Shown here piece by piece: positions 3,074 to 21,932 of a DNA stretch of 64,000 bases. A program made the position numbers and the translations under genes. Source of the stretch: Thelephora terrestris (taxonomy: Eukaryota > Basidiomycota > Agaricomycetes > Thelephorales > Thelephoraceae); the NCBI GenBank assembly GCA_015956445.1, contig WIUZ02000022.1, positions 1-64,000 on the forward strand, in the 5' to 3' direction. The notes under the pieces were generated by a model that was not told the origin of the DNA, did not search any database, and saw only the letters and a list, made by a program, of their open reading frames with translations. The number at the start of each line of letters is the position of its first letter. The stretch's first letter is position 1.

Positions 3074-5710
3074 ATGTCTTCTCAACTCACTTCCCTCGTC
3101 CCTGTCCTCTCCAGCCCAAACTACCAACAGTGGGCCGGACCAATGCGCTCATACCTGATGTCGCAAGGACAATGGAGGACGATCCAGAAAAAGGAACCTA
3201 CCCTCGAGGTATGGCCAAAAACTGAAGCCACCTATGACGCCGAGAACAATCTATTGACTCAGGCACAGGAAGGCACTGATAACCAAGACGAAGTAGACGC
3301 ATGGGCTGAGGCAAATGGCAAAGCCCTCGGCAACATCTTCCTGCGCCTTGTCCCGGATATCCAGTACAAGTACCGAGCTGAAACCAGCGCTGCCGCCCTT
3401 CTCAAAGCAATCGAGAAGGAGTATGGAAAGCCAGGAATCATCGGAATCTACCTGGAGTTCAAACATGCGATGGAGGTCAGGATCCTTGAGGGACAAGACC
3501 CCACGCCCGCCTTAGACAAGTTTGCTTCCCACATCGGCCGACTTGAGAGCAACGGGGAAGACGCCGTCATTCCCCCTTTCATCAAAGCAATGATGCTCAT
3601 GTCAAAGCTTCCTCCGTCATACAATAACATCCCACAGGCCATATGCCAGACGGAGGATCTCACCAAGCTTGATGTGGACGGTCTTCGGCGGTCGATCCTC
3701 CTCGCATGGGAGCAAACATCCAATGGCAAAGGTAGACAGCAGGCACAAAGGCTGTCCAACGTACAGCGCACTCCTGGAAATCCCAACTTCCAACAGCAGC
3801 AGCAGCACGGCGGGGATCAGTCCCAGGGCCAGGGTGGACGCGGGCGTAACCGCCGAGGAAACAGAGGTGGCCGAGGAAGGTTCCAACAGCAGGCACAACA
3901 GTCTGAGGAACCCCCCATACCCTCTCCCGTCCCCCCTCAACCTCCAGTTGCGTCTGGCTCCGGTATGTCAGTCACCGACTACGGCTTCACCTCTATGGCA
4001 GCCTTTCCCATATGCTCCCTCCCGGTCCATCGTGAAGGTGCAGGGACCCCTTCCTTCTATCCCTCCGTTCAGAAGGCAAGAGATCTCTCAGCACGACTAG
4101 GCGTCACGCCCACGATTGAGACCCTCAAACGACTGGAGTGCTCCTGCGAGCAGACGGTCGATCCTCGACCTCGCAAGAAGGCGCGTACCCCACCAAGCGA
4201 GGATGAAGTGAGCCTGGGATGGTCAGGTGATGAGATGGTTGTTGGGTCCCCCGTGTCGGTTGCCGGTCCGTCTGGCGGAAGGTATGAAACAAGTGTTCAG
4301 GTGTTGAGTAACGATACTAACGACTCCACAGCAGCTGAAGATAAACATAATTCTTCAGTAGTAGCTTCCGAATACACTTGTTTGACCTTGTCCACCCTGA
4401 GTGAAACTGAAGCCGTATGGATGCTCGACTCTGGTGCATCCCGGCACTTTACCTTCGATATGAATGATTTTGTTGAATACGAGGCAATCGAGCCCATCCC
4501 TCTGAGGACTGGAACTACTTTCACAACAATCATCGGTAAAGGAACAGTGATCCTCTACATAGACGAAAAGGCTGTTAGACTAAACCCCGTCTATTTTGTT
4601 CCTGAAATATCCCATAGGCTATTATCTCTTGGCCAGTTCCTCAAAAGCGGACTCTTCTCGAGGGGGAGTGCTCGTGAAATCTCACTCTACAAAGAAGAAA
4701 CCGAGTTTCTTACCTTCCACCCTCGAACCGAGGATGATAGCATTTACATCATCAGAACTCTCCTCGGGGCGCAACTTACTGCTGCCGAAATTGAGACCAT
4801 TTATAGTGCTGATTTTGAAATCATGCACCGCCGACTGGCTCACCCCTCAAAAGAAGTGATCCAAAAGGCTGGGAAACATGTCAAGGATTTTCCTCATGTC
4901 GAAATCCCAAAAGAGCACCTCTGCACTGGATGTGCGCAAGGAAAGATGACAAATAAGGCCTTTCCCCCATCCAACACCAGAGCAAGCGCCCCTTTCGAGC
5001 TGATCCATTCGGATCTAAAAACCTTCCCCATTGAATCCTATCGCAAGTACAAGTACTCAATCGTCTTCTATGACGACTATACCTCACACGCCTGGACCAT
5101 GAATTTGCGCACTAAGGACGCTGCACTTATGGCTACCAGACACTTCCTGGCTATGGTTGAAACCAAGTACCAGAAGAGAGTACGTCGATGGATGACCGAT
5201 GCCGGGGGGGAGTACACGTCCCTAACATTTACGACAATGCTCAAGGAAAAAGGGATTGAGATCCTCCAATCTATTCCACATGCACACCAACAAAACGGTT
5301 GCGCGGAAAGGATCATTCGAACATTGATGGATAAGGCAGAATCCATGAGATTACAGGCTTGCCTCCCTCAGTCTTGGTGGGAATTCGCCCTTGACCACGC
5401 AACTCACGTTTACAATCGAACACCGAACCGTCGCCTAAATTGGCAGACTCCATTCCAACTATTGAATGGAAGTAAGCCTTCAATTGATCACCTTCGGGTC
5501 TTTGGCTGCAGAGCCTACGTCTTCATCCCGGAAGAAGTACGGATAAACAAACTCGCGCCCCGATCAGAATTGATGACCTACCTGGGTACTCACCCGGGAG
5601 GAAAAGGATGGATCTTTATGTGCGGACCTAACAACATCATTTTCTCCGCTGCTCAGGCCACCTTCGATGAGTTGCACTTTCCAAAGTGCCCAACTGCCAG
5701 TGTGCGGTGA
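3074..5710 (+). pseudogene. Copia gag-protease-integrase, first part of a broken polyprotein
   Basis: Open from an ATG at 3074 (an ATG 15 codons upstream is in frame, but the later one has the better CAAA context) to a TGA at 5708-5710. Order: a UBN2/gag-like domain; a Gln, Arg and Gly-rich stretch (about 3790-3900) where many copia Gags have a CCHC zinc knuckle, which is not seen here; aspartic protease with DSGAS at 4427; the integrase zinc-binding HHCC module (HRRLAH ... CTGC, about 4827-4940); and the integrase catalytic core with HSDLK, TDAGGEY and the downstream Glu in the NGCAERIIRTL context. The TGA interrupts the linker between integrase and reverse transcriptase. The frame stays protein-like past the stop, so it is a disabling mutation and not the natural end. 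Confidence 0.9.
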
Positions 5711-5856
5711 AACACACGACTGCAATCTACTGCGCCACCCCTACCCAGTCATCACTGTCACAAGGACGGTGACTGCCAGTGTCCCCTTCCAGGAGGACAA
5801 GAGGAAGATGACGCAGCACCCTCAGCACGTCCCAAACCTACCCCCAAGCCTTCTCA

Positions 5857-7962
5857 AAAGGCAAGGAACGTGCTATTGAGCCAGCACCACGGCCGCAGAC
5901 GCTGGTGCAATCTAGAGCGCCCAGTTCGGGGCCGCCGAGATCGCCTACACCCAGCTCTAGCTCTGATTCCAGCCCTGAGGATGCACCACCCGCCCCGCCA
6001 ACGATTATGCCTCCGTCACCTGTTAAGACTCGGAGGCCCCAGCGTGAGCGGAAAGTACCGGCCAAGCCCGGCAATGTTTACGGTAGTAAGCATCCGGTAG
6101 AGATAATTAAGTCTACCCGGCGTATGAAGGATTGGAAGAAGGTTGTTGGAGATTTTTCCGTAGCACCTAGGCGCGGGCGAAGTTCAGGAGCAGTTCCCAG
6201 ACCTAGCGCGCAGCCACTTCCTGAGAGAGAATCCTTCGCTGAGGAAGAGACTGAAGCGGCGTCAGAATCCGAAAATGAGGTTGAGAAATCCATTGAACCA
6301 TCCGGATTCACCACCCCTGAGGAAGACACTGACGCCCTTCTAGCTAGGCTATGCCGGGAAGGGGGAGTAGAACTCCAAAACCTCTTAATTTCGAAAGCCG
6401 TCTCACCAACCGCCAACGAAAAAACTCCAAAAGAATGGAAATACCGAGACATCGCCACACTACCACAGGCAGAGCTCGAGGAATGGAGGACAGCCTGCAA
6501 CGAAGAGTTGGAAGCTCTTCGCAGGCGCAAAGTATACAACCTGGTAGATCGCCCTCGAGGCCGCAAGGTTATCAAAAACCGCTGGGTATTTGACCAGAAA
6601 CCAGATGGTCGCAAGAAAGCCCGCTTAGTAGCAAAAGGCTTCTCACAGGTTGAGGGAATGGACTACGATGCCGTGTTCTCCCCCGTTGTCCAATTCGAGA
6701 CAGTGCGCCTAATATTTGCAATGGCTGCCCTCGGAGGATGGGCCCTCAAAGGACTTGATGTTCGAAACACGTACCTATACAGCGAACTCGACGAGGAAAT
6801 ATACATGGAACAACCAGAGGGATTCGTAGCTCCAGGAAAAGAGACTTATGTTCTCCGCTTAAAGCGTGCCCTCTATGGACTGAAACAAGCTGGACTCGCA
6901 TGGTGGCGAGCCCTGAAACGGTCCATGGAAAAGCTCAGATTCAAATCCTTGAGCTCAGATGCTGGAATCTTCATCTACCAGGATAAAGATGGAAGATTCG
7001 TAATTGCGTTAATCTACGTAGACGATGCCATCTTTACCGGACCCCACACAGCGCTTACGGAGCAGCTCAAGGGGGAGTTTATGAAGATATGGGAAACCAG
7101 GGACTTAGGGGACCTAACCGATTTCCTCCGCATGAGGATCACCCGACATGGCAGCAAAATCTCCATAGATCAATGCGCCTACCTTCAAACGGTCCTTGAG
7201 CGATGTGGGATGCAAAATGCTAAAGTCGCAGCAACCCCTCTCCCGGCCGGGTATGTGCCGACTCCGTCGACAGAGGTAGCATGCCCGGAAAGACGAAGCA
7301 GGTTCCAAACCATAATTGGTTCCTTACTATACCTCATGCTGGGTACCCGACCAGATATCACCTTTGCGGTTACCAAACTTGCGCAATATGCTGCAAACCC
7401 ATCAAAAGAGCACGTTGAGAGAGCACTGTATATCTGCCGCTATTTAATCGGGACTTCCAAATATCGATTAACCTACGACGGAGATTCACGGGAAGGTATC
7501 TCAGCCTGTACCGACTCAGACTGGGCTTCAGACCCCACTCAGAGACGATCCCAAAGTGGATACTTTGTCCGAATGGCAAAAGGACTCATCTCATGGACTT
7601 CAAGAGCGCAGAAAACCATTGCGCTGTCGTCCACTGAGGCTGAATACATGGCGCTCTCCAATTGTAGCCGCCAAGTAGTCTGGATGCATACCCTTCTGGG
7701 GGAGCTCGGCTATGACCTTAAAGCCATCCCAATCTGCGGAGATAACCAAGGCTCGATCTTTATCGCCTCAAACCTGGTTACTGAAAAGAGGTCGAAACAC
7801 GTCAACATCCGCTATCATTACATTCGTGAGGTCATCAATGATGGACGCGTGGTAGTGTATTTCATTCCCGGAGATGATAATCCCGTGGATCTCCTGACGA
7901 AGAACCTTGGAGTCATCAAACTCAGAAAATTTAGAGATGCCTTAGGCCTTGAATTCTTCTGA
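5857..7962 (+). pseudogene. Copia reverse transcriptase-RNase H, second part of the broken polyprotein
   Basis: Continues the polyprotein in a different frame. The switch falls near an AAAA run at about 5856-5860 inside a Pro/Ser-rich linker. From about 6430 the RVT_2 domain is complete: the NRWVFDQKPDG block, the ARLVAKGFSQ block, the first catalytic Asp in LKGLDV, and YVDD at 7015-7026. RNase H follows with CTDSDWA, STEAEYMA and a later Asp (CGDNQGS), ending at TGA 7960-7962. Apart from the stop and frame change upstream, the catalytic residues are intact. Confidence 0.9.
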
Positions 7963-10800: not shown

Positions 10801-13800
10801 TCATTTCTTGCGGGTAATGGGAGGACTGGGGAGTGGAGGATGATTGAGGGTCGAAACTGGGCTGACAGTCGTTAGATGATGAAAACCTTGTGTCACACCT
10901 GCCATAATGAGGGCAGGATCGATCGCCTGCAGGGTAGGGTCTAGACGTATCATTTCCGCAAGCAGTTCGGGGGGTGCTGGCAGTTGAGTTGTCGAAGGCG
11001 TGATCGAAGTAACTTCAGCGTCATTGGAGGTAGGTGATGGGGCGACCTGTTCAGCAAGCTCGGTGCATAGCATCATCTCAGTCACAATAGAGACTTGAGG
11101 TAACGTCGCTGGGGGTTCCGTAGAGGCGGAAGGGGACAGCATGATGGGATTGAGGGCGGGGGAAGCTGAAGAAGCGGATGGAATGGAAGCAGCGGGCGGC
11201 AATGACATCATCGAGACCTTGGATGAAAAATGTTTGTTCTTCCAGGCACGCTTTTCTTCCACAGAAAGTTTCTCGAATCGGGTCGCCCCTGATTCCCATG
11301 AATTGAGGAGGACTCCCAACTCGATGCGGGTGAGGGCGACGCTTGGATTGCAAAATTTCTGTCCCAGTGGCCAGTTTTTGATGACGACATTGTGCTTCTC
11401 AGTGATGAGATCGTCGAATCGATCGTACTGCGTGTGGAGGTCGGCAACACCGGTGATAGCCCCTACCAATGACAATTCATGTTTGAGAAATCAACATACA
11501 GGGGTCTGCACTCACGTAGCTTCTGACCAATCAACGCGGCCGTTCGTTTCTTGAGGTCTAGAGTCTGCATCTTGGAATTTTCAATGACACCTGGACCAGA
11601 CCCATTAGAATACAAACTGGGAGCACGCAGGAAACGAGTGAGACATACCTTTCAAACCAAACATCACGTAGGCCTCAATTTGAAGCGAGAATTCCTCGAC
11701 TGATCGTTTCAATGACGAGTTAAAGAACCCCTGGATCGTGTCACTTGAGAAGTAGGCATAGGGTTTGATGAAGTCCTCTGTAGTAGAGCGACAGGCCACC
11801 AACAGGTATTCGAGACCGGTCCTTGCGTGCAGCTGCGCTAACTAGGGAGGTTGAGAATGTGCAGACCAATGAATGAATTCTGTGATGATTTCGCCGTTTA
11901 CCCCCTTTCATTTCCTTTATTTAACGCCTCATCACCACTAAGTCAGTTGGTGCCCTGCCCTAAACACGGCGGTAAACTGTTTATTATGCAGTATGCCCTA
12001 TGCTTAACGACTCAAAGTCCAATACGTGGAAAGTGCTACTAGTCAAGATACCCCAGAAGACCCGAGGTATAATACATGAACATGTACTGGCGGACCTTCA
12101 TACGAAGATCCCCCCTACCTGGCCCTCTGTTGCCCCTGGACGACTAGTAGATATTCAGGCTACCGACAACAAGGGATGTATTAATAAGCGTCGCGCGTTG
12201 ACCTCTCGCAGAAGTCAACCGGCTTATTAATCTGACCCTTGGATTGGACTTATGAAAACCATTATGCTTTACGACTCATGGATCACGCGCAATAGATAAA
12301 ATAGAAAGAAGATTCATTGGAAGCCAACAGTACAAAAGAGTTATTTAATCAATATCTCTTCGGATCCTTTGTACTACTTCCAATGCCGATCTCACCAACT
12401 CTGTCAGGAACATGGTATTTTTAAACTTTTTATAACACGCTCTTTCTTCGAACTCTTCTTATCACTTCTTATGTTTTGAATGCTTCACACTCCTTATCCT
12501 TCACACCAATCATTCAAAACACACAAACGCGCATACATTCACGGCAATACGAAACAACCTGGCTATACAAATGCTTCTACAACGTCCTCAAAAGTCGACT
12601 CTATCTACGGCAGGCCTGAAGGTCACCAAACGTCCATCTCGGAGATCGTAGTGCTGGCCCCTCCTCGCTAGGACCTCCCCGAACATGGCGTCACCATCTT
12701 CGGCACTCAGTTGAACGACTAGTTCAAGCCGATAGGAAGAGATACCTTCGAGCGGACCGATCAGCCTCCCAGATGTCACCGAACTTTGGAACACTTGGTC
12801 CCACATCGCCATCACCGGGTGACTGCTCGACAGCACTATCGACGTAGTCGGCAAGCGACCCTCCGTCTCCCTCATCGGACCCCTGGGTGGGATCCTGGAT
12901 TGCGAGTCGACGCTGGTGGCGAAGCTGGATCTCCGACTCGACCTGTCGGTAGGGACGGTTGACCTGATAGCGGAACTTTCGTCCCCCACCTCAATCAGAC
13001 TGGTCACCATCCGACTCGACTGGACGAGGGTAGGGATTAGCCGAAGGAGCCATGCGATGAGCAGGACGGCGTCGAGAGCGTTTGCATCGTTGCCCCTTAG
13101 TCACCGGACGTACCTCGGCGACCCTCGGAGCATCTTCGGCTCGGTCCACCTCCATGACCTCATCCTCGATCTTCACCAACTGATGGATCGGCTGCAAGAC
13201 ACAGCGCCCACAGTTCTCCTTGTCGGAAGCGGCCAAGGTAGAAGCCGGACCAGGAGTCGGAACGGGAACCGCGTTCTCGATCGGAGGCGTCGCATAGGAC
13301 GACGGGTTAGGAGAAGGGAGTACCACCTCGTTGGCGTACTCCAGCTCGAACGGAACATCGGCGGTCCCCTGGCCAACCAATTTGGGACCCTCCTTGCAGT
13401 TGCAGGTTTTGTCCTGCAAGGACTCGACCTGCGCTGTCAACACGGCCACCACGTTCTCAAGCTCCTCAGTCTAGAAGAAGTGTCAGCTTCCCTCATTTCG
13501 TCTTCGAGATGAGGAAAGCTACCTTTTCATCCCTCCTGGCCAACGCCCCCTTGATGTTGTTGTCCCGAACCTTCAACCCAGCAATCAACTCTTGATGGTT
13601 GGCGACCATTGCCTCCAACGCCTCGTTTGTTCCCTGTTGAAAGGCGGCCAGAGTCTCCTTCATCTGAAGACCCTCTGCCGACAGACGAAGGACGTCTGCC
13701 TTCGCCTCCTTCACCTCGTGCTCCAAACGTTCAACCTAGGCAGTTTGATTAGTCGAGAGTCATACTCGAATATTCAAACGGAGAACCTACCTTGCTCTCC

Positions 13801-16800
13801 CCTTCCCGAACGAGCAACCACAACAACGACGTGGCGGCAGTGGCATGGCGGACGGCCCGAGGAACGGTTGCTCCGTGTTCCAATAGATCCTGATCGTAGA
13901 TTCCCCTTTGCAGGGTGTACCAGAGCTCCTTCTTGATCGGATGTTCCAGCTCTCCGAACCTACCCCTCATCTGAAAGGCCACCTTCTCCGCAATAATCGT
14001 ACGGACCCAGAGCTCGTCGTCCCAGGTTAACCCCTTCAAATGAGGCATCGTCTCCCTGAGACGTTCGGCGTCCACCTCCGTGACGACCTCCAAGATCTAG
14101 AAGCCGTTAGTTTGACATCAACGCCGAAAGAACGTTCCTCTACCTAGAGGAAGGCGTTAGTGCAAACACACGAAGCTCTAGGTCTCCCCCATACCTGGTC
14201 ATCCGTGGTATAGGGAGTCCCAGCTGCACAGGCATAGGTCTTGCGAGCGGCGGCACGACGGTCGATGCGAGAGATGGTGGAGATACCATTGGCGACTTTG
14301 TAGGTATGGTTGTTGGGGAAGGACATGTTTTGGTAAGATGATAGGGAAGTTACTGGTGTTGCTGATCAAGGATGGCTCCAAGAAGACGTCCTTCTTATAG
14401 CCTAGATCGGTGATCCTTCACGTGACCTACCTCGACGAACCTCATTGGTCCGGGTCACATCAACTTCCGCCCCTGTACCATCATCGTCGGCTTACTACAT
14501 CAAGCTGACACCTCGGCCCGCGGGTCGGCCTTGGAAGAACTTCGTTCCGGAACGCCTAGAACGCGCGCGCACTAAAAATAGGTCTCATGACCTTGACGAC
14601 CCCTTAACGAACCCCCTTTATGACCCTGATGACTCATTTATGACATCATGATAACGACCAACCCTGGACCCTGGAACACTCACGTGGGCACGGGGTATCA
14701 ACATTTGGACACTGTGCTTCTAATCGGATAGTAACCCTATCTGATCTAGTTGTGCTTTGGAAGCAGAGTAGGCCCGAGCCGAGAACGGCGGCCGAAGAAT
14801 ATAATCCCTGGTGCCACTTAGGAAGAACGATATTCCCAGGTGCTATGCCTAATCAAGACTGGGTCTGATCAAGCGATTACGGTTGCAACTCCCAGGTTAC
14901 TGCCTGTCCGTTGGTATCATACCACCTACCGACAACAAGGGATGCGTAGAGTTCCTTCGATCTCTAGCCAATCACAGAAGCTCAGAGACGGTGCTCACCT
15001 GACCCTTGGGTGTGGTCTAGATTCAGGTACGAACTTTCATGACCCATGCCCCTTTTTCTTTTAGGACTAGTGTTATCTTTACTCCTATGTTTCATGCGGA
15101 CATTCCTTATCTCTTATGCAATCCTTCGCACGCTAGTAAGGCCCTTTGTCCTTTATTCTCCCACGCGTCGTATTTGTTCATTTCCCTTACTTTGCGTTCA
15201 CACACTCCTTATCTCCCTTTGTCTGGACTTGATAAGGGTATATTAGGGTATTGACGTCATGGCCACTCCTTTAGTATAAGTAGCAACTGTGGCTGTATCG
15301 TAGTACCTTAGTTTTGTTACCTCAGGAAATCCTCTGCCCTTCTCAGCCCAGTTGCAGTTAAGGACAAGTCAGAGTTTCTTGTTTGATCCAAGACATCCCC
15401 ATCTGCTCTCCCTCCCGCTCTGCGCGTCAACTGCGCCTCGTAACTATAGACTCCCAGCAGTCATATTAGAACACCTCGAGCGTCCAGTCGATCAACTGGT
15501 GGAGTCATCAAATCCTGTTGTAGGGATCAACCCTTGCTTGTTAAACCGAACAAAGTGCGGTTTAGGTTGGGTTTCTCTTTAGGATTTCGACCTGACTTGT
15601 AGTGACCTCGGACAACCTACCGGAAGAATAGAGACATGATCGTTCTCTCACAAGCTAGTTGGACTAGTGAGTACTCTGCGGAGTCGGCTCAGTGAACTGG
15701 TAGTTGTTGGGGTAGAGTGGCCCTGACAAACTCCTCATTCAACCAGTTCTGCTCCCGGATCTCGTTCGGGTCCACGTCCGACAAGTCATCGTAATCTGGA
15801 AGCTCCGTATCAGAGTTTGGTTCACTATCAGGAACGAACTCGGCGTACGGATCATACTCCAGAGCAGGCCATTGACGGCGACTACCCCAAGGAGTAGAAA
15901 CGAACTCAGAACGAGGAGTGTCCCTACGGACGACTCCTACGTTCTGGTAGAATTCGTCGCTCCCAATTTCGATGACCTCATCATCAACGGGAACCAACCT
16001 GTTCTCGTGACGAACCAACAAACGAGCGGGTGGCGACTCAGCCCGGTTAGGGATAATCGGCGACCCGGCTCGATGCAGAACCTCTCCCCCTTCTTCTTCC
16101 TCAACTCGGACCTCCGGCTCGTTACATTTCCTCTGGAGATCCCGGACTTCTCCGGTCAACTCGGAAACACGACGAGTAAGGCGAACCTAAAACGAATAGG
16201 GTTAGAAGATATCAAAAACCTTCAACCCCTACCCGTTACCTTATCGTCCTCCAATTCTCCGGTCTTAGTAACCAGAGCCCAGACCAAGTCCTTCAAAGTA
16301 GTCACCTCTCCCTAGAAAGAAATGTTGGGTTAGAAAAGTCAATTATCTCCCGACCCCACATTTACCTTCAGCAAATCAATATCGGCCCCCTGTCGAACAA
16401 CGGTATCTTCCTGTCCGTGAATAACCCCCTGCATATCCTCCTTCCAGTTTTCCAAAGCCTCGATCTCCTCGCGACGACCATCAATATGCTCATTGACATG
16501 AGCCACTTCGTCCATTAACATGGACCCAACGTTCCCCGTATGGAGAACGCTGGCCTCCAACACGGAGTTGAAGGTCTCGTTGGATTCCGTCATGAATTCA
16601 ACACCCCTATTGAGGAGTTCACTCGCATATGGGTTGGTCTCGATGCGCGCCAACTTGCGCCGAGACACCCTACGAGCGGCTTGGAGAAAGTCCCTAAAAC
16701 CTAAAAGGAGTTAGCTTGGTTTCCTAAACCGGAATGCGCAAGCAGGGCCCCCACCTAAATCAGAGAACCCCTCATTAGGGTCGGCGGTGGCGGTCCGGTC

Positions 16801-18290
16801 CATAACCGCTCCCAAAGTAGGATAAGGACGGGACGGATCACGGCGGGCATGGGAGAAGCGGTCGATGTTGTAGTTGTTCTCCTGAACAGGAGAGTAAGAG
16901 GAAGAACGACGGGTGGGATTGCGAGTAGAGGCACGAGGCATGTTGGCTGTGTAACAAAGGTGGGTTTGTTGGGAGACCAGTCATCCAACCCCCTTTGGTT
17001 ATATACCAAATGCCACGCCCCTTCCACGACTCAGGAGTTGAGTCATCATTTCTATTGTTTACTGCGCATGACCCACATGACATCATATGCCCCTATTTCT
17101 TAGTCATATGCTCCCCTTTTGCCATTGGCTGTTAGTCAGTCATACCCACATTCCTTCCGAACATTCCCAGGCTACGTCATGCTTTGTAATGCTCTCAAAT
17201 TGCTATTGGCCGCCACACTTTCGTTTATCAGCTGATAATTTGTAGCATTAGTCACCACGTAACGCACAGACCATGCAGTGCTGCGCACGGACCATGTTTG
17301 TCTGTGTTTGTATCTTTAGGGTAGTTACAAGTCACTGTCACGTCACAAATCTAAGTAGTATATATACTCAGAGTAGTTTAGCCTGTACTCCTTAGATTTG
17401 TTATCATCAGACTCTCCGTGACCTCTACTGCTGTGTGCTTAGAGCAAGAGTGCCTGAAGACCCTTGTCTCCTTCTTTCTCCTCTTCTCCAATCTAGTCTG
17501 TGAAGAGACTTCCGATATCCCTGGGTTTGCAACAGGGTTATAACTGTGTGTTTGATCCCTGTGTGTGATAGGTTTGGATAGCAAGAGTGCTATTGAACTG
17601 TAGAGGTCGCGTCGGCCTGACAAATTCACTTTACCTGGGTCTCGATGGACTGGAGTGTGCTCCTTGCATTGTGAAACACGTTGAGTGGGACACTGTGTGC
17701 CACGAGCTTCTTGCCCATGCGTTGCTCTTCAATCCTTTGGATCGCCTCAGCAGTAACGTCCTCACGTTGAGCGGGTGAGAGGGTCTTCCACTTTTCGCTG
17801 ATCTGCTTATTGACTTCTGTCAAGTTAATCTGTGACACGTTTTCGCCGGCTTCGCCTGGAAGGTGCATGTTAGAAAACCCACAATAGATGTTCCGGGTGA
17901 CTTACTTTTCATTCTCTCCAACTCAAGCTTTTGGTACGCGTTCCATCCGTTTACCTTTCTCACTGACCGTGATGTGTGGGCCCAGTGTATCAGTTCATTG
18001 AAGTAATGTTCCACGCTGAACTTCCCGAAGCGATTCCGAAGGCCTTCGGCGAGCTCTCGTATTGTGGCCTGGGCTTCCTCCAAAGTGTCTTGGTACTCAA
18101 GACGGTACTGCACGTGTTTCTTCGCTTGGACCAGACAGTCACCTGCAGTGAGAGCGCGCTTCGGCTTTCGTTGCTGTGTCCTCCTCCGCCAGAAAGTAAA
18201 TGTCTTGTTAGTCGTGAGCTTAGGTGCCTTCTTCGCAACTGCGTGATGACGGGAAACAGTGTTGGGGTCAGGGGGCAACACGTGAGCCAT
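10801..18290 (-). CDS. HMG-box-like protein of unknown function, split by a 5.7-kb nested insertion in an intron
   Basis: Five exons on the minus strand: 18290-17906, 17855-17635, 11841-11649, 11590-11516 and 11462-10801, giving one frame of 511 residues. A TATA-like TTATAAATATTA lies about 55-60 nt before the ATG. Residues about 100-200 resemble an HMG box (VNGWNAYQKLELER, then ISEKWKTLSPAQRE). The rest matches, from memory, a large mushroom-specific family usually found among transposons, with an LHARTGLEYLLVACRS block; its function is unknown. The intron between exons 2 and 3 holds the element 11881-17622; without the element and one target copy it is a normal 46-nt intron. The frame continues past the TGA at 10803-10801 for 49 basic, protein-like codons to another stop at 10653-10651, so the annotated stop may be a premature CGA-to-TGA change. 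Whether the enlarged intron is still spliced is unknown. Confidence 0.65.
11876..11880. repeat. Target-site duplication AATTC, left copy (outer element)
   Basis: AATTC precedes TGTGATG at 11881 and recurs at 17623-17627 after CTGACA. Removing the element and one copy restores a 46-nt intron with a GTAAAGT donor and a CCTCCCTAG acceptor. Confidence 0.9.
12397..12401. repeat. Target-site duplication AACTC, left copy (inner element)
   Basis: AACTC precedes TGTCAGG at 12402 and recurs at 15729-15733 after CCTGACA. Confidence 0.92.
12724..14326 (-). pseudogene. Antisense coiled-coil gene of the inner element
   Basis: Exons 14326-14195, 14096-13791, 13735-13523 and 13470-12724 form a frame of 465 codons broken by a TGA at 12993-12991. 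Comparison with the copy at 20601-21612, which reads through here, marks this TGA as a CGA-to-TGA change. The protein begins MSFPNNHTYKVANG, has a helical domain (about residues 45-146, LTWDDELWVRTIIAEKVAFQ), a coiled coil (about 147-230), a Cys-containing stretch (CNCKEG; DKENCGRC), an acidic motif (KIEDEVMEVD) and a basic patch (GQRCKRSRRR) that could be a nuclear signal. The first intron is unusual: two complete intron-like units back to back between 14194 and 14097. TATAAG at 14399-14394 lies about 70 nt upstream of the ATG. Function unknown. Confidence 0.6.
14394..14399 (-). promoter_or_regulatory. TATA box of the antisense gene in the inner element
   Basis: TATAAG on the minus strand about 70 nt before the ATG at 14326, the usual spacing for a short 5' leader. 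Confidence 0.5.
15275..15280 (+). promoter_or_regulatory. Sense TATA box near the right end of the inner element
   Basis: TATAAG on the plus strand, conserved in the copy at about 364-369. The TATA-to-end distance of about 450 bp would be R plus U5 if the element is an LTR. Confidence 0.45.
17000..17005 (-). promoter_or_regulatory. TATA box of the antisense gene in the outer element
   Basis: TATATA within TTATATAACC, about 60 nt upstream of the ATG at 16941 on the minus strand. Confidence 0.5.
17359..17366 (+). promoter_or_regulatory. Sense TATA box near the right end of the outer element
   Basis: TATATATA about 260 bp before the CTGACA terminus, matching the position of the sense TATA box in the inner element. 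Confidence 0.45.
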
Positions 18291-19651: not shown

Positions 19652-20546
19652 TCGGGGGCTGTGACGGTCCGTCAGTGAGGGTCACGATTGAGAAAAAAAC
19701 GATACTCACAGTCTGTCCTGTGAAAACACGGCTGGGTCACCACGGCCTAATATCACCCAGTGCAGCATCTTGGGGCTCTGATGGTGGGAGGTGGAGAGGG
19801 GAATGGCGCGATTTTTCGCACTGATATAGTGGCACCGGAAAGTTGCGACACAGATGAGGAAACTGACTTTCTCTGTTGGCTGAGACCACCAGAACTCCAA
19901 CCGCGAGACCCCCTGCCTCTTCCGAATATTTGCCTTGGGCATGGCAGACGTCCGTGGCGTAAGGCGCAGTAAGAGAGAGAGCAGCCGCTTATCTTGAACC
20001 TTGAGCATGCGACTGATGAGGGGGGCGATAGGTGAGCTGGCACCCGTGAGAAGATATCGCAATGGCATCAACAAATCAATGGCAGAATCATGTGCAGGGC
20101 AGACACGTGCCACGCCTCCCAGTGGACGCAGGAGGGGGGAATAAATGAACCCTTGGACGCGACTGAGGCCCATAAGCCATGGAACCTATGTATTTATTAT
20201 TGTAGATTAACCTACACTATAGAAGATAAGCCTAGGGAGAAACCTGATCCACCCTTGCATGACCCGGCCAGCACCACCCCTCGGTTTGCCCATGCCGGTC
20301 TGCCGGCAGTTCGCTCCCATGGAAAGTTCAGTAACCGGATCACGTGTGGTTTGACTTAGAGGAATTTTTGGAACGCGCGAAGGCCTCACAAAAAGGGAAA
20401 GGAGTGTGTTACCAAAAAAGGGGTTTTTTCGAATCGATCTCAAAGAGAAAGATGCACCGAAAATTTCCCCTCGTTAGGCAGTGCATATTCGCTTCTTTAC
20501 ATCCCCTACTTAGGCATCGATCTTGTGAGAACGAGGTGGAGCCGGG
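19652..20546 (-). other. Possible 5' exons and promoter of the hypothetical gene at 18560-19651
   Basis: Minus-strand coding-like pieces lie between 20043 and 19706 (for example MPKANIRKRQG, followed by an intron-like GTCAGT...TATCAG), but no combination of splice sites joins them in frame to the exon at 19651. The part above 20200 shows nothing recognisable. Confidence 0.3.
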
Positions 20547-21932
20547 TAGGTTCTCTGTTTGAATATTCGAGTATGACTCTCGACTAATCAAACTGCCTAG
20601 GTTGAACGATTGGAGCGGGAGGTGAAGGAGGCAAAGGCAGACGTCCTTCGTCTGTCAGCGGAGGGTTTGTTGATGAAAGAGACCCTGGCCGCCTTTCAGC
20701 AGGGGACGAACGAGGCGTTGGAGGCAATGGTCGCCAACCATCAGGAGTTGATCGCTGGGTTGAAGGTTAGGGACAACAACATCAAGGGGGCTTTGGCCAG
20801 GAGAGATGAAAAGGTAGCTTTCCTCATCTCGAAGATGAAATGAGGGAAGCTGACACTTCTTCTAGACTGAAGAACTCGAGAACGTGGTGGCCGTGTTGAC
20901 AGCGCAGGTCGAGTCCTTGCAGGACAAGACCTGCAACTGTAAGGAGGGTCCTGTGTTGGTTGGTCAGGGGACTGCCGAGGTTCCGTTCAAGCTGGAGTAC
21001 GCCGACGAGGTGGTACTCCCTTCGCCTAACCCATCGTCCTATGCGACGCCTCCGATCGAGAACTCGGTTCCCGTCCCGACTCCAGCTCCGGCTTCCACTT
21101 TGGCCGCTTCCGATAAGGAGAACTGTGGGCGCTGCGCCTTGCAGCCGATCCATCAGTTGGTGAAGATCGAGGATGAGGTCATGGAGGTTGACCGAGCTGA
21201 AGATGCTCTGAGGGTCGCCGAGGTACGTCCGGTGACTAAGGGGCAACGCTGCAAACGCTCTCGACACCGTCCTGCCCATTGTATGACTGCATCGGCTAAT
21301 CCTTACCCTTGACCAGTTGAGTCGGATGATGACCAGTCTGGTCGAGGTGAGGAGCGAGGATTCCGATATCGGGTCAACCGTTCTTACCGACAGGTCGAGT
21401 CAGAGATCCAACTCTGCCACCAGCTTCGCCTTGCAAGACAGGATCCCGCCCAGGGATCCAATGAGGGAGACGGAGGATCGCTTGTTGACTACGTCGATAG
21501 TGCTGCTGAGCAGTCACCCGGTGATGGAGATGTGGGACCAGGTGTTCTGCAGTTTGGTGACATCTGGGAGGCTGATCGGTCCGCTCGAAGGCATCTCTTC
21601 CTATCGGCTTGAACTAGTCGTTCAGCTGAGTGCCAAAGACGGTGACGCCATGTTTGGGGAGGTCCTTGCGAGGAGGGGCCATCACTACAATTTCCGGGAT
21701 GGACGGTTGATGACCTTTAGGCCTGCCGTAGATAGAGTCGACTTCTGATAGGACGATGATAGCACCGTATATAGCTCGTTGTGGATTCGCTGGGAATAGT
21801 ACGCGCGTGTGTGTGTTTTGAATGATTGGTGTGAAGGATAAGGAATGTGAAGCATTCAAACATAAGAAAGGGTAAGAAGAGTTCGAAGAAAGAGCGTGTA
21901 ATAAAAAGTTTAAAAATACCATGTTCCTGACA
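20547..21932 (-). mobile_element. Truncated, inverted copy of the inner LTR-like element
   Basis: Homology to 12402-13790 in the opposite orientation. It starts at or near the GTAGGT donor of the second intron of the antisense gene and runs to the terminus CCTGACA at 21932. The rest of the element (first exons, promoter, sense TATA region) is absent, and no target duplication is found because one end is lost. With the copy at 12402 it forms a large inverted repeat with roughly 6.8 kb between the arms. Confidence 0.75.
20601..21612 (+). pseudogene. Antisense coiled-coil gene, second copy (5' truncated)
   Basis: Exons 20601-20813 and 20866-21612 match exons 3 and 4 of the gene at 14326-12724 with the same lengths (213 and 747 nt). 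The first two exons and the start codon are missing. A TGA at 21310-21312 interrupts the frame where the other copy has an Arg codon (CGT); after it the frame continues protein-like to the shared stop at 21610-21612. At the place where the other copy carries its own TGA, this copy reads CGA. Each copy therefore shows the undamaged state of the other. Confidence 0.65.

Follow-up and report, generated by a model that had tools for sequence, protein, structure and literature searches.

The window, the whole 64,000-nucleotide stretch of Thelephora terrestris DNA analysed here, contains a solo long terminal repeat (LTR) of a Ty3/gypsy chromovirus, nested in a second LTR-like unit. As a whole, it is probable that the inner unit represents a giant chromovirus solo LTR and the outer one, most likely, the LTR of a second family, with an antisense gene in U3 and a protein product that would help the element.

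Two nested units in the window

The inner unit (3,327 bp, TGTCAG...CTGACA) is flanked by AACTC at both edges, and the outer unit (2,410 bp net, TGTGAT...CTGACA) by AATTC, with the inner unit inserted into the final exon of the antisense gene that the outer one carries. Both antisense genes were predicted from the sequence to consist of four exons and three GT..AG introns. The ends, lengths, 5-bp duplications, sense TATA boxes and opposite-strand multi-exon genes with TATA boxes of their own, as described in the initial annotation, were confirmed in the window sequence. Features are given below with strand and basis.

11876..11880, no strand: AATTC target duplication, left of outer unit (sequence)
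11881..12401, + strand: outer unit, left part, LTR-like (sequence ends; matches elsewhere in genome)
12160..12242, + strand: shared hairpin-like module, outer copy (common to both LTR kinds)
12345..12401, - strand: outer antisense gene, predicted exon 4, last part and stop (sequence prediction)
12397..12401, no strand: AACTC target duplication, left of inner unit (sequence)
12402..15728, + strand: inner unit, solo LTR of the chromovirus family, nested in outer unit, U3-R-U5 reading on + (ends, target duplications; same LTR paired around gag-pol on C11)
12724..13470, - strand: inner antisense gene, exon 4, 249 codons including stop (20-copy alignment)
13523..13735, - strand: inner antisense gene, exon 3, 71 codons, coiled-coil-like (20-copy alignment; weak Pfam)
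13791..14096, - strand: inner antisense gene, exon 2, 102 codons (20-copy alignment)
14195..14326, - strand: inner antisense gene, exon 1, 44 codons (0 gap columns across 20 copies)
14395..14400, - strand: antisense TATA box of inner gene (CTATAA 74 nt before ATG in 16/20 copies)
14926..15009, + strand: shared hairpin-like module, inner copy (common to both LTR kinds)
15275..15280, + strand: sense TATA box of inner LTR, TATAAG (kept in 20/20 copies)
15729..15733, no strand: AACTC target duplication, right of inner unit (sequence)
15734..16186, - strand: outer antisense gene, predicted exon 4, first part, cut by inner unit (sequence prediction)
15734..17622, + strand: outer unit, right part (sequence ends; matches elsewhere in genome)
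16240..16311, - strand: outer antisense gene, exon 3, preceded by intron 2 (alignment)
16366..16700, - strand: outer antisense gene, exon 2, predicted two helices, the second of 86 residues (alignment; structure prediction)
16755..16941, - strand: outer antisense gene, predicted exon 1 (sequence prediction)
16998..17006, - strand: antisense TATA box of outer gene, TATATA, about 60 nt before ATG (read from sequence)
17359..17367, + strand: sense TATA box of outer unit, about 262 nt from right end (read from sequence)
17623..17627, no strand: AATTC target duplication, right of outer unit (sequence)

The inner family of chromoviruses

A full-length relative of the inner unit (C11:96422-109036) consists of two direct LTRs with TG...CA ends, 3,299 bp each and with 0 differences between them, and is flanked on both sides by 5-bp ATCCT target duplications. 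Between these LTRs, Pfam profiles identified gag, protease, reverse transcriptase (RT), RNase H, integrase, and chromodomain, in this order. Zinc knuckle, protease, RT, RNase H and integrase all scored above the Pfam cut-offs, the chromodomain after integrase matched PF00385 with an E-value of 8.8e-18, and Retrotrans_gag, with 22.8 bits, was slightly below its cut-off of 24.1. By eye, a polypurine tract, GGAAGAGGATAA, was recognised directly 5′ of TGTCAGG at the 3′ LTR of the element.

An A- or B-type inner LTR was present on both sides of all internal regions found (8/8). The initial annotation had looked to full-length relatives with two direct copies around gag-pol, and these were identified for the inner unit and none for the outer; the opposite outcome, units that are always single with no internal retrotransposon, does not hold for the inner family in view of the C11 element.

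Besides the window copy, the genome holds 13 further near-full inner units, and perfect 5-bp duplications were found for 18/18 further single inner copies, when a 19th row of the duplication table, being one LTR of the full-length element with one edge internal, was not counted. The sense TATA box of the window copy lies 454 nt from the right end, and across 20/20 copies this distance is 453-459 nt. LTR and pol have the same sense, and the LTR gene is on the opposite strand, contained entirely within the LTR rather than in the interval from pol to the 3′ LTR (aORF-3R placement).

The antisense gene of the inner LTR

On comparative evidence, the inner antisense gene is a real gene. The set of 20 copies excluded partial inner copies and included the identical C11 LTR once. 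In every copy the frame is 1,398 nt long in four exons, with 0 gap columns in exons versus 215 elsewhere in the alignment, and GT..AG is kept at 60/60 introns. The window copy has a premature stop in exon 4, at codon 377 of 466; 16/20 copies are free of premature stops. At the 8/8 internal regions, two of which are the tandem C23 pair, exon 4 of the LTR gene is intact.

Among the 20 copies, dN/dS (codons with stop or gap skipped) was about 0.10, range 0.08-0.11, with dN<dS in 190/190 pairs, a ratio that dS may flatter, since synonymous sites (pi 0.19) diverge faster than introns (0.064) and flanks (0.02-0.09); relative to introns, dN is ~0.4, versus 0.1 relative to dS. For gag-pol of the same family, dN/dS was 0.02-0.06; the tandem twin L041 was left out of this set and of the exon-4 analysis around internal regions. 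The strong conservation of the protein among the copies examined suggests that the element probably needs it.

The predicted proteins and the shared U3 module

No match above the Pfam cut-offs was obtained for single exons or spliced proteins of either gene, and matches below the cut-offs were mostly to coiled-coil families. PDB queries by sequence returned no match for the inner protein and, for the outer one, 15 weak matches, most of them coiled coils (best E-value 0.026), so that the function proposed below stands without homology support. No homology to HBZ-like or VANC-like regulators appeared at Pfam cut-offs or among PDB sequences, and an IMG/VR scan with exon 2 of both genes returned no relative. 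The predicted structure of inner exon 2 was poor (pLDDT 49), and that of outer exon 2 comprised two helices, one of them 86 residues long (pLDDT 90).

The initial annotation regarded the two genes as one gene kept in two diverged elements, which was not borne out: the comparison of the inner and outer proteins covered 34 columns (P 0.03), their local score was equalled by 6/500 shuffles, and there was no likeness in exon 2. As judged from these alignments, the proteins are at best distantly related.

The hairpin-like module common to both LTRs follows a pattern with 436 exact copies in the genome versus 0 for the reversed pattern. Within positions 11500-18000 no Rfam match was obtained up to an E-value of 5, and the module therefore fits no known RNA family. 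Its stem is without covariation support, because all six pairs are invariant.

Proposed role of the antisense gene

In the mechanism proposed, U3 would bear an antisense four-exon gene driven by its own TATA promoter, and both the inner and the outer gene are predicted to be transcribed and spliced. Genomic RNA is expected to begin close to where the 5′ LTR ends on the right, and the gene would therefore be complementary to the 3′ part of that RNA and be present twice per element. When LTR-LTR recombination yields a solo LTR, the antisense gene would survive whole. Its protein, helical or coiled-coil with basic stretches and an acidic C-terminal part, could be an accessory factor in the nucleus with a trans effect on the copies of the family, which would most likely keep U3 active or unsilenced, perhaps via the shared U3 module. 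That the protein helps rather than restrains the element is a guess.

The reverse role, in which the gene restrains its own element and copy number is limited either by the protein or by dsRNA in which the antisense mRNA pairs with U3 of genomic RNA, appears rather doubtful. In this arrangement the 3′ part of genomic RNA has its complement in the antisense mRNA, the many solo LTRs could express the gene, which fits dosage-dependent restraint, and antisense-RNA regulation has been proposed for plant antisense extra ORFs in the review text of PMC7264820. However, restraint by RNA only predicts neither purifying selection on the protein, nor indel-free exons, nor the in-frame gaps of the outer gene, and at the protein level restraint may operate.

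The outer unit as probable LTR of a second family

Most likely, the outer unit represents a solo LTR too, from a second family of this kind, the autonomous form of which was not found in the genome. It is read as an LTR on account of its ends and target duplications, the position of its promoter, and the shared module. The family has TG...CA ends and 5-bp target duplications in 4/5 copies. The giant solo LTRs with a U3 antisense gene suggested by the initial annotation are shown for the inner unit by paired LTRs around gag-pol and a constrained frame, whereas for the outer unit, with no gag-pol pair found, the LTR reading comes from the traits above.

For the outer antisense gene, dN/dS was 0.06-0.23, with dN<dS in 15/15 pairs and dS up to 1.4 (C23_2066k left out of the set), and gaps in the protein alignments were in-frame. 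Exon 2 was without a stop in 148/150 scored matches in the genome. Among the matches listed, intron 2 is exactly absent in at least 27 genomic matches, which is consistent with a spliced antisense transcript. Purifying selection on both antisense frames agrees with their dN/dS values, and the contrary case, frames conserved in no other copy, is at odds with the indel-free inner frame in 20 copies and with the outer pairs.

At the best 40 further places, out of 244 candidates, the left 521 bp of the outer unit had 97-98% identity in 39 and 96% in one. In the genome, no outer-type LTR pair was found around gag-pol at the positions of RT, integrase, copia RT and gag profiles. Same-oriented outer pairs at C23:834-849k, C3:405-419k and C4:1102-1115k were rejected as full-length elements, as no gag/pol match was inside, and the C4 stretch also has further units in opposite orientation.

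It is unlikely that the outer unit instead is a non-autonomous element, moving with its gene as a single LTR-like unit via the enzymes of the inner chromovirus. The number of places (150 scored for the gene; the best 40 of 293 long-match candidates, window included), the lack of gag/pol matches within the same-oriented pairs looked at, and the 96-98% identity of the left 521 bp across the best 40 further places, out of 244 candidates, would suit such an element, but TG...CA ends, duplications in 4/5 copies, a sense TATA box close to the right end and the shared module are features of LTRs, and a lone LTR would be without primer site and purine tract. Moreover, the autonomous form may be lost, absent from the assembly, or unrecognised. 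The reading retained for the outer unit is that of a second LTR family, represented here by a solo LTR.

Selection mainly in active lineages

In the inner copies, replacement versus silent changes per site (N/S) were 0.257 for private versus 0.068 for shared changes (p=5e-11). Private CpG changes (22 silent:39 replacement) were as opportunity (246:406) and differed from shared CpG changes (39 silent:12 replacement, p=2e-5), and private non-CpG changes were constrained too (102 silent:63 replacement versus opportunity 1183:2224, p=6e-12). As constraint is weaker on private than on shared changes, and private changes at CpG sites are neutral, selection on the inner gene is, by these substitution counts, placed mainly in active lineages. 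Most of the constrained private non-CpG changes may predate insertion, and the solo inner copies may themselves be under some constraint.

A gene serving the host, with the solo LTRs as a domesticated gene family, is highly improbable: open frames are kept at many places, 16/20 inner copies are without a premature stop, and constraint persists on private non-CpG changes, but private replacements are relatively commoner than shared ones and private CpG changes look neutral, as if copies decay after insertion. An explanation of the open frames as chance or shadow products of a young repeat can practically be dismissed, in spite of one fairly open opposite-strand frame (4-5 stops in five copies), and is refuted by the gathering of variable sites at gene-frame third positions (4, 4 and 31 by codon position in exon 1; 22, 12 and 67 in exon 2), by the lack of indels across 1,398 exon columns, and by maintenance of the outer frame at dS near 1.

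Relation to known systems

MMTV has a protein gene, sag, in its LTR; the gene described here is likewise LTR-borne, but antisense, whereas sag is on the sense strand. The coding part of HTLV-1 HBZ lies mostly outside the LTR. HBZ is described in PMC1459196 and PMC3185765 as a spliced antisense transcript from the LTR encoding a basic leucine zipper protein; the likeness, a spliced antisense gene starting in an LTR, is one by description, splicing being predicted in our case.

The initial annotation knew of no such gene in fungi, which needs modification, as Boty/BcGypsy1 of Botrytis cinerea has an antisense gene, brtn, between pol and the 3′ LTR (Zhao et al. 2011, as reported in the texts of PMC7264820 and PMC8365987). 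Both are fungal LTR retrotransposons with an extra gene antisense to gag-pol, but on these accounts brtn lies outside the LTR, in single copy per element, and would be lost from solo LTRs, unlike the inner-family gene, which is inside U3, twice per element, and in four exons. In plants, antisense extra ORFs between pol and the 3′ LTR are reviewed for Grande (gene23), RIRE2, Retand and PvRetro13, with an own promoter and a nuclear product for gene23 (PMC7264820). These resemble our case as conserved antisense genes with no function assigned in either, but the gene here is within the LTR; the term "intron" is absent from the text of that review as available.

According to the text of PMC10398659, VANC proteins of VANDAL elements bind noncoding sequence of their own family and remove silent marks, a model for element-encoded anti-silencing that is an analogy only, VANDAL having no LTR gene. 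LTRs with gene-derived sequence are described for Cassandra, Helenus and Ajax, which carry small RNA gene pieces and a Pol III promoter, and Helenus solo LTRs have 5-bp duplications (PMC10886601); the LTRs here carry a protein gene instead. A literature search of titles and abstract openings found no retrotransposon whose LTR encloses an entire antisense protein gene. As far as these sources extend, a fungal LTR retrotransposon was already known to carry an antisense gene, and the placement within the LTR would be new.

Biological implications

Tentatively, the giant LTR may be a self-contained regulatory gene cassette, in which each insertion, even as a solo LTR, would leave a working antisense gene, the protein would recognise the conserved U3 module, and the crowd of solo LTRs would form a trans network keeping or limiting the few full-length elements. 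Solo LTRs are usually regarded as dead scars, but many of those found here keep an intact conserved protein gene, and LTR-LTR recombination therefore need not end the influence of an element. Through this layout each full-length element gets two copies of the antisense accessory gene. The many natural copies, the variants lacking an intron and a conserved candidate target site make the question of help or restraint by antisense retroelement genes testable, and LTR-borne genes of this sort could be mis-annotated as host gene families.

Inner unit as a chromovirus LTR

The positions of both units in the initial annotation were borne out, with 5-bp target duplications on both sides of each:

12402-15728: inner unit, AACTC at both edges
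11881-12401 + 15734-17622: outer unit, AATTC at both edges

A whole-region query against the genome (40.6 Mb, 60 contigs) returned at least 71 matches, 13 of those elsewhere being of near full inner length (29 scored of 781 candidates). The inner unit is an LTR. The search for full-length relatives proposed in the initial annotation succeeded for the inner family: on contig C11, a pair of inner-type units of 3,299 bp each, with 0 differences, encloses about 6 kb including gag-pol, with ATCCT bounding both outer edges and a purine tract just before the 3′ LTR copy. The internal part contains a gag reading frame that includes a zinc knuckle and scores slightly below the cut-off of the gag profile, protease, reverse transcriptase (RT), RNase H, integrase and a chromodomain, and the inner element belongs to the chromoviruses. 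The internal region of the family was present at 8 genomic places, flanked on both sides in 8/8 by LTRs of type A or B, which differ over about 300 bp of U3; more distant relatives were found at 3 places. Single inner copies are solo LTRs, and perfect 5-bp duplications bordered 18/18 of those tested, as well as the window copy.

Two further inner-type LTR pieces lie in the window, one at its left end (1-817, 97% identical) and one on the minus strand at 20539-21932 (90% identical). Along C23:1030055-1049151, two internal regions separate three copies of the inner-type LTR gene, seemingly a tandem full-length pair with a common middle LTR.

Gene on the antisense strand of the inner LTR

The gene model predicts a protein of 465 residues from four exons:

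14195-14326, minus strand: exon 1
13791-14096, minus strand: exon 2
13523-13735, minus strand: exon 3
12724-13470, minus strand: exon 4

Coding length was 1,398 nt in 20/20 complete LTR copies and GT..AG bordered 60/60 of their introns; 16 of the 20 were without a premature stop, the window copy being among the four with one. The short, compact introns agree with a fungal origin. The copy alignment by which the initial annotation had proposed to recognise purifying selection on the antisense frame gave dN/dS of 0.114 within A, 0.084 within B and 0.104 for A versus B, with no exon indels (0 gap columns in exons versus 215 in the rest of the LTR), and variable sites clustered at third positions of this frame. 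Exon 4 was intact in 8/8 LTR-flanked internal-region elements. Among 7 full-length copies (tandem twin excluded), exon 4 gave dN/dS of 0.127 with dN<dS in 21/21 pairs, and gag and pol pieces gave 0.018-0.055; gag is partly missing from one of these copies, and pol is interrupted by a stop in one.

With the majority base assumed ancestral, N/S per site was 0.257 for changes private to a single copy versus 0.068 for shared ones (Fisher p=5e-11). Private CpG transitions (22 silent, 39 replacement) fit the opportunity of 246:406 (p=0.89), shared CpG transitions were 39 silent and 12 replacement, and private non-CpG changes (102 silent, 63 replacement) were constrained relative to an opportunity of 1183:2224 (p=6e-12). 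In our reading of these counts, CpG decay would have occurred after insertion, unconstrained, and most other private changes would predate insertion, stemming from lineages still moving; solo copies may be under some constraint. At fourfold sites pi was 0.19 versus 0.064 in introns and 0.02-0.09 in flanks of the same LTR, regardless of the commonest base, and scaling to introns instead gives a ratio of about 0.4, a weaker constraint. The absence of exon indels and the codon pattern are independent of dS.

Outer unit and its gene

The antisense gene of the outer unit also has four exons. Of 235 candidate places, 150 were scored as protein-level matches to exon 2, counting the window copy; 148/150 were without a stop, and identity was 63-99%. 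Exons 2-4 of six copies gave dN/dS of 0.056-0.229 in 15/15 pairs (dS 0.37-1.43). Of the initial claim that a spliced antisense gene was kept in two diverged elements, the four-exon antisense gene in both stood; the two proteins have a common plan and a short acidic motif, by which homology is only suggested. The interpretation as giant solo LTRs held for the inner unit and is the most likely one for the outer, for which genome-wide positions of profile matches (integrase 144, RT 120, copia RT 99, gag 16) revealed no pair around gag-pol. Copia-type integrase and RT profile matches lie at window 4985-7242, plus strand.

In the window, the inner LTR is inserted in the last exon of the outer gene. 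Inner LTRs occur inside outer units there and at L013, L019 and L024 elsewhere in the genome, at four different sites with their own duplication each, which may reflect a taste for the chromatin of the family. The L013 outer unit also has an insert of about 500 bp within exon 1 of its antisense gene.

Base-by-base reading showed that intron 2 of the outer gene is exactly absent from copy L046. A search with 136 residues of exons 2-3 gave 153 matches; among the matches listed, 27 spanned the query in exactly 408 bases (one with a stop), 8 others in 462 bases, the intron being present, and most of the remainder stopped at the exon border. The intron may have been gained in the intron-bearing copies rather than lost in the others; exact absence is the expected outcome of reverse-transcribing spliced antisense RNA, and since the intron-less copies include one group 88-89% and another 63-66% identical to the window exon 2, more than one loss is suggested.

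Shared U3 module

Both kinds of LTR, otherwise unlike each other, contain a bipartite module of GACAACAAGGGATG, 40-66 variable bases and CTGACCCTTGG, with 436 exact genomic occurrences (reversed pattern 0). Pattern matches in the window are:

12160-12242: shared module
14926-15009: shared module
14-97: shared module

All distinct full versions folded (30/30) had a predicted identical 6-bp closing stem and a variable folded middle; the stem, being invariant, had no covariation support, and the module had no Rfam match. Its position is in U3 in both families, and it is therefore expected within the 3′ portion of the genomic transcript. The antisense protein may, as a guess, have its target site in this module.

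Known systems and proposed function

Retrotransposons of plants and the Botrytis element Boty are reported to carry extra antisense genes located between pol and the 3′ LTR (aORF-3R; excerpts of PMC7264820, PMC8365987), and HBZ of HTLV-1 is a spliced antisense product from the 3′ LTR (excerpts of PMC1459196, PMC3185765). The inner gene is inside the LTR, and by position is not an aORF-3R. Titles and abstract openings in the literature search contained no antisense protein gene wholly within a retrotransposon LTR.

The best-supported reading of the sequences is a U3-borne antisense accessory gene, which would be expressed from a promoter of its own and maintained by selection on the element. 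The protein has a basic stretch (KRSRRR in the inner family), a coiled-coil-like part and an acidic end, and would most likely act in the nucleus, in trans. Restraint of the element by the protein ranks below help, although the data do not decide, because element-level purifying selection is easier to explain by help; by analogy with VANC (excerpt of PMC10398659), the protein would help its element through activation or anti-silencing.
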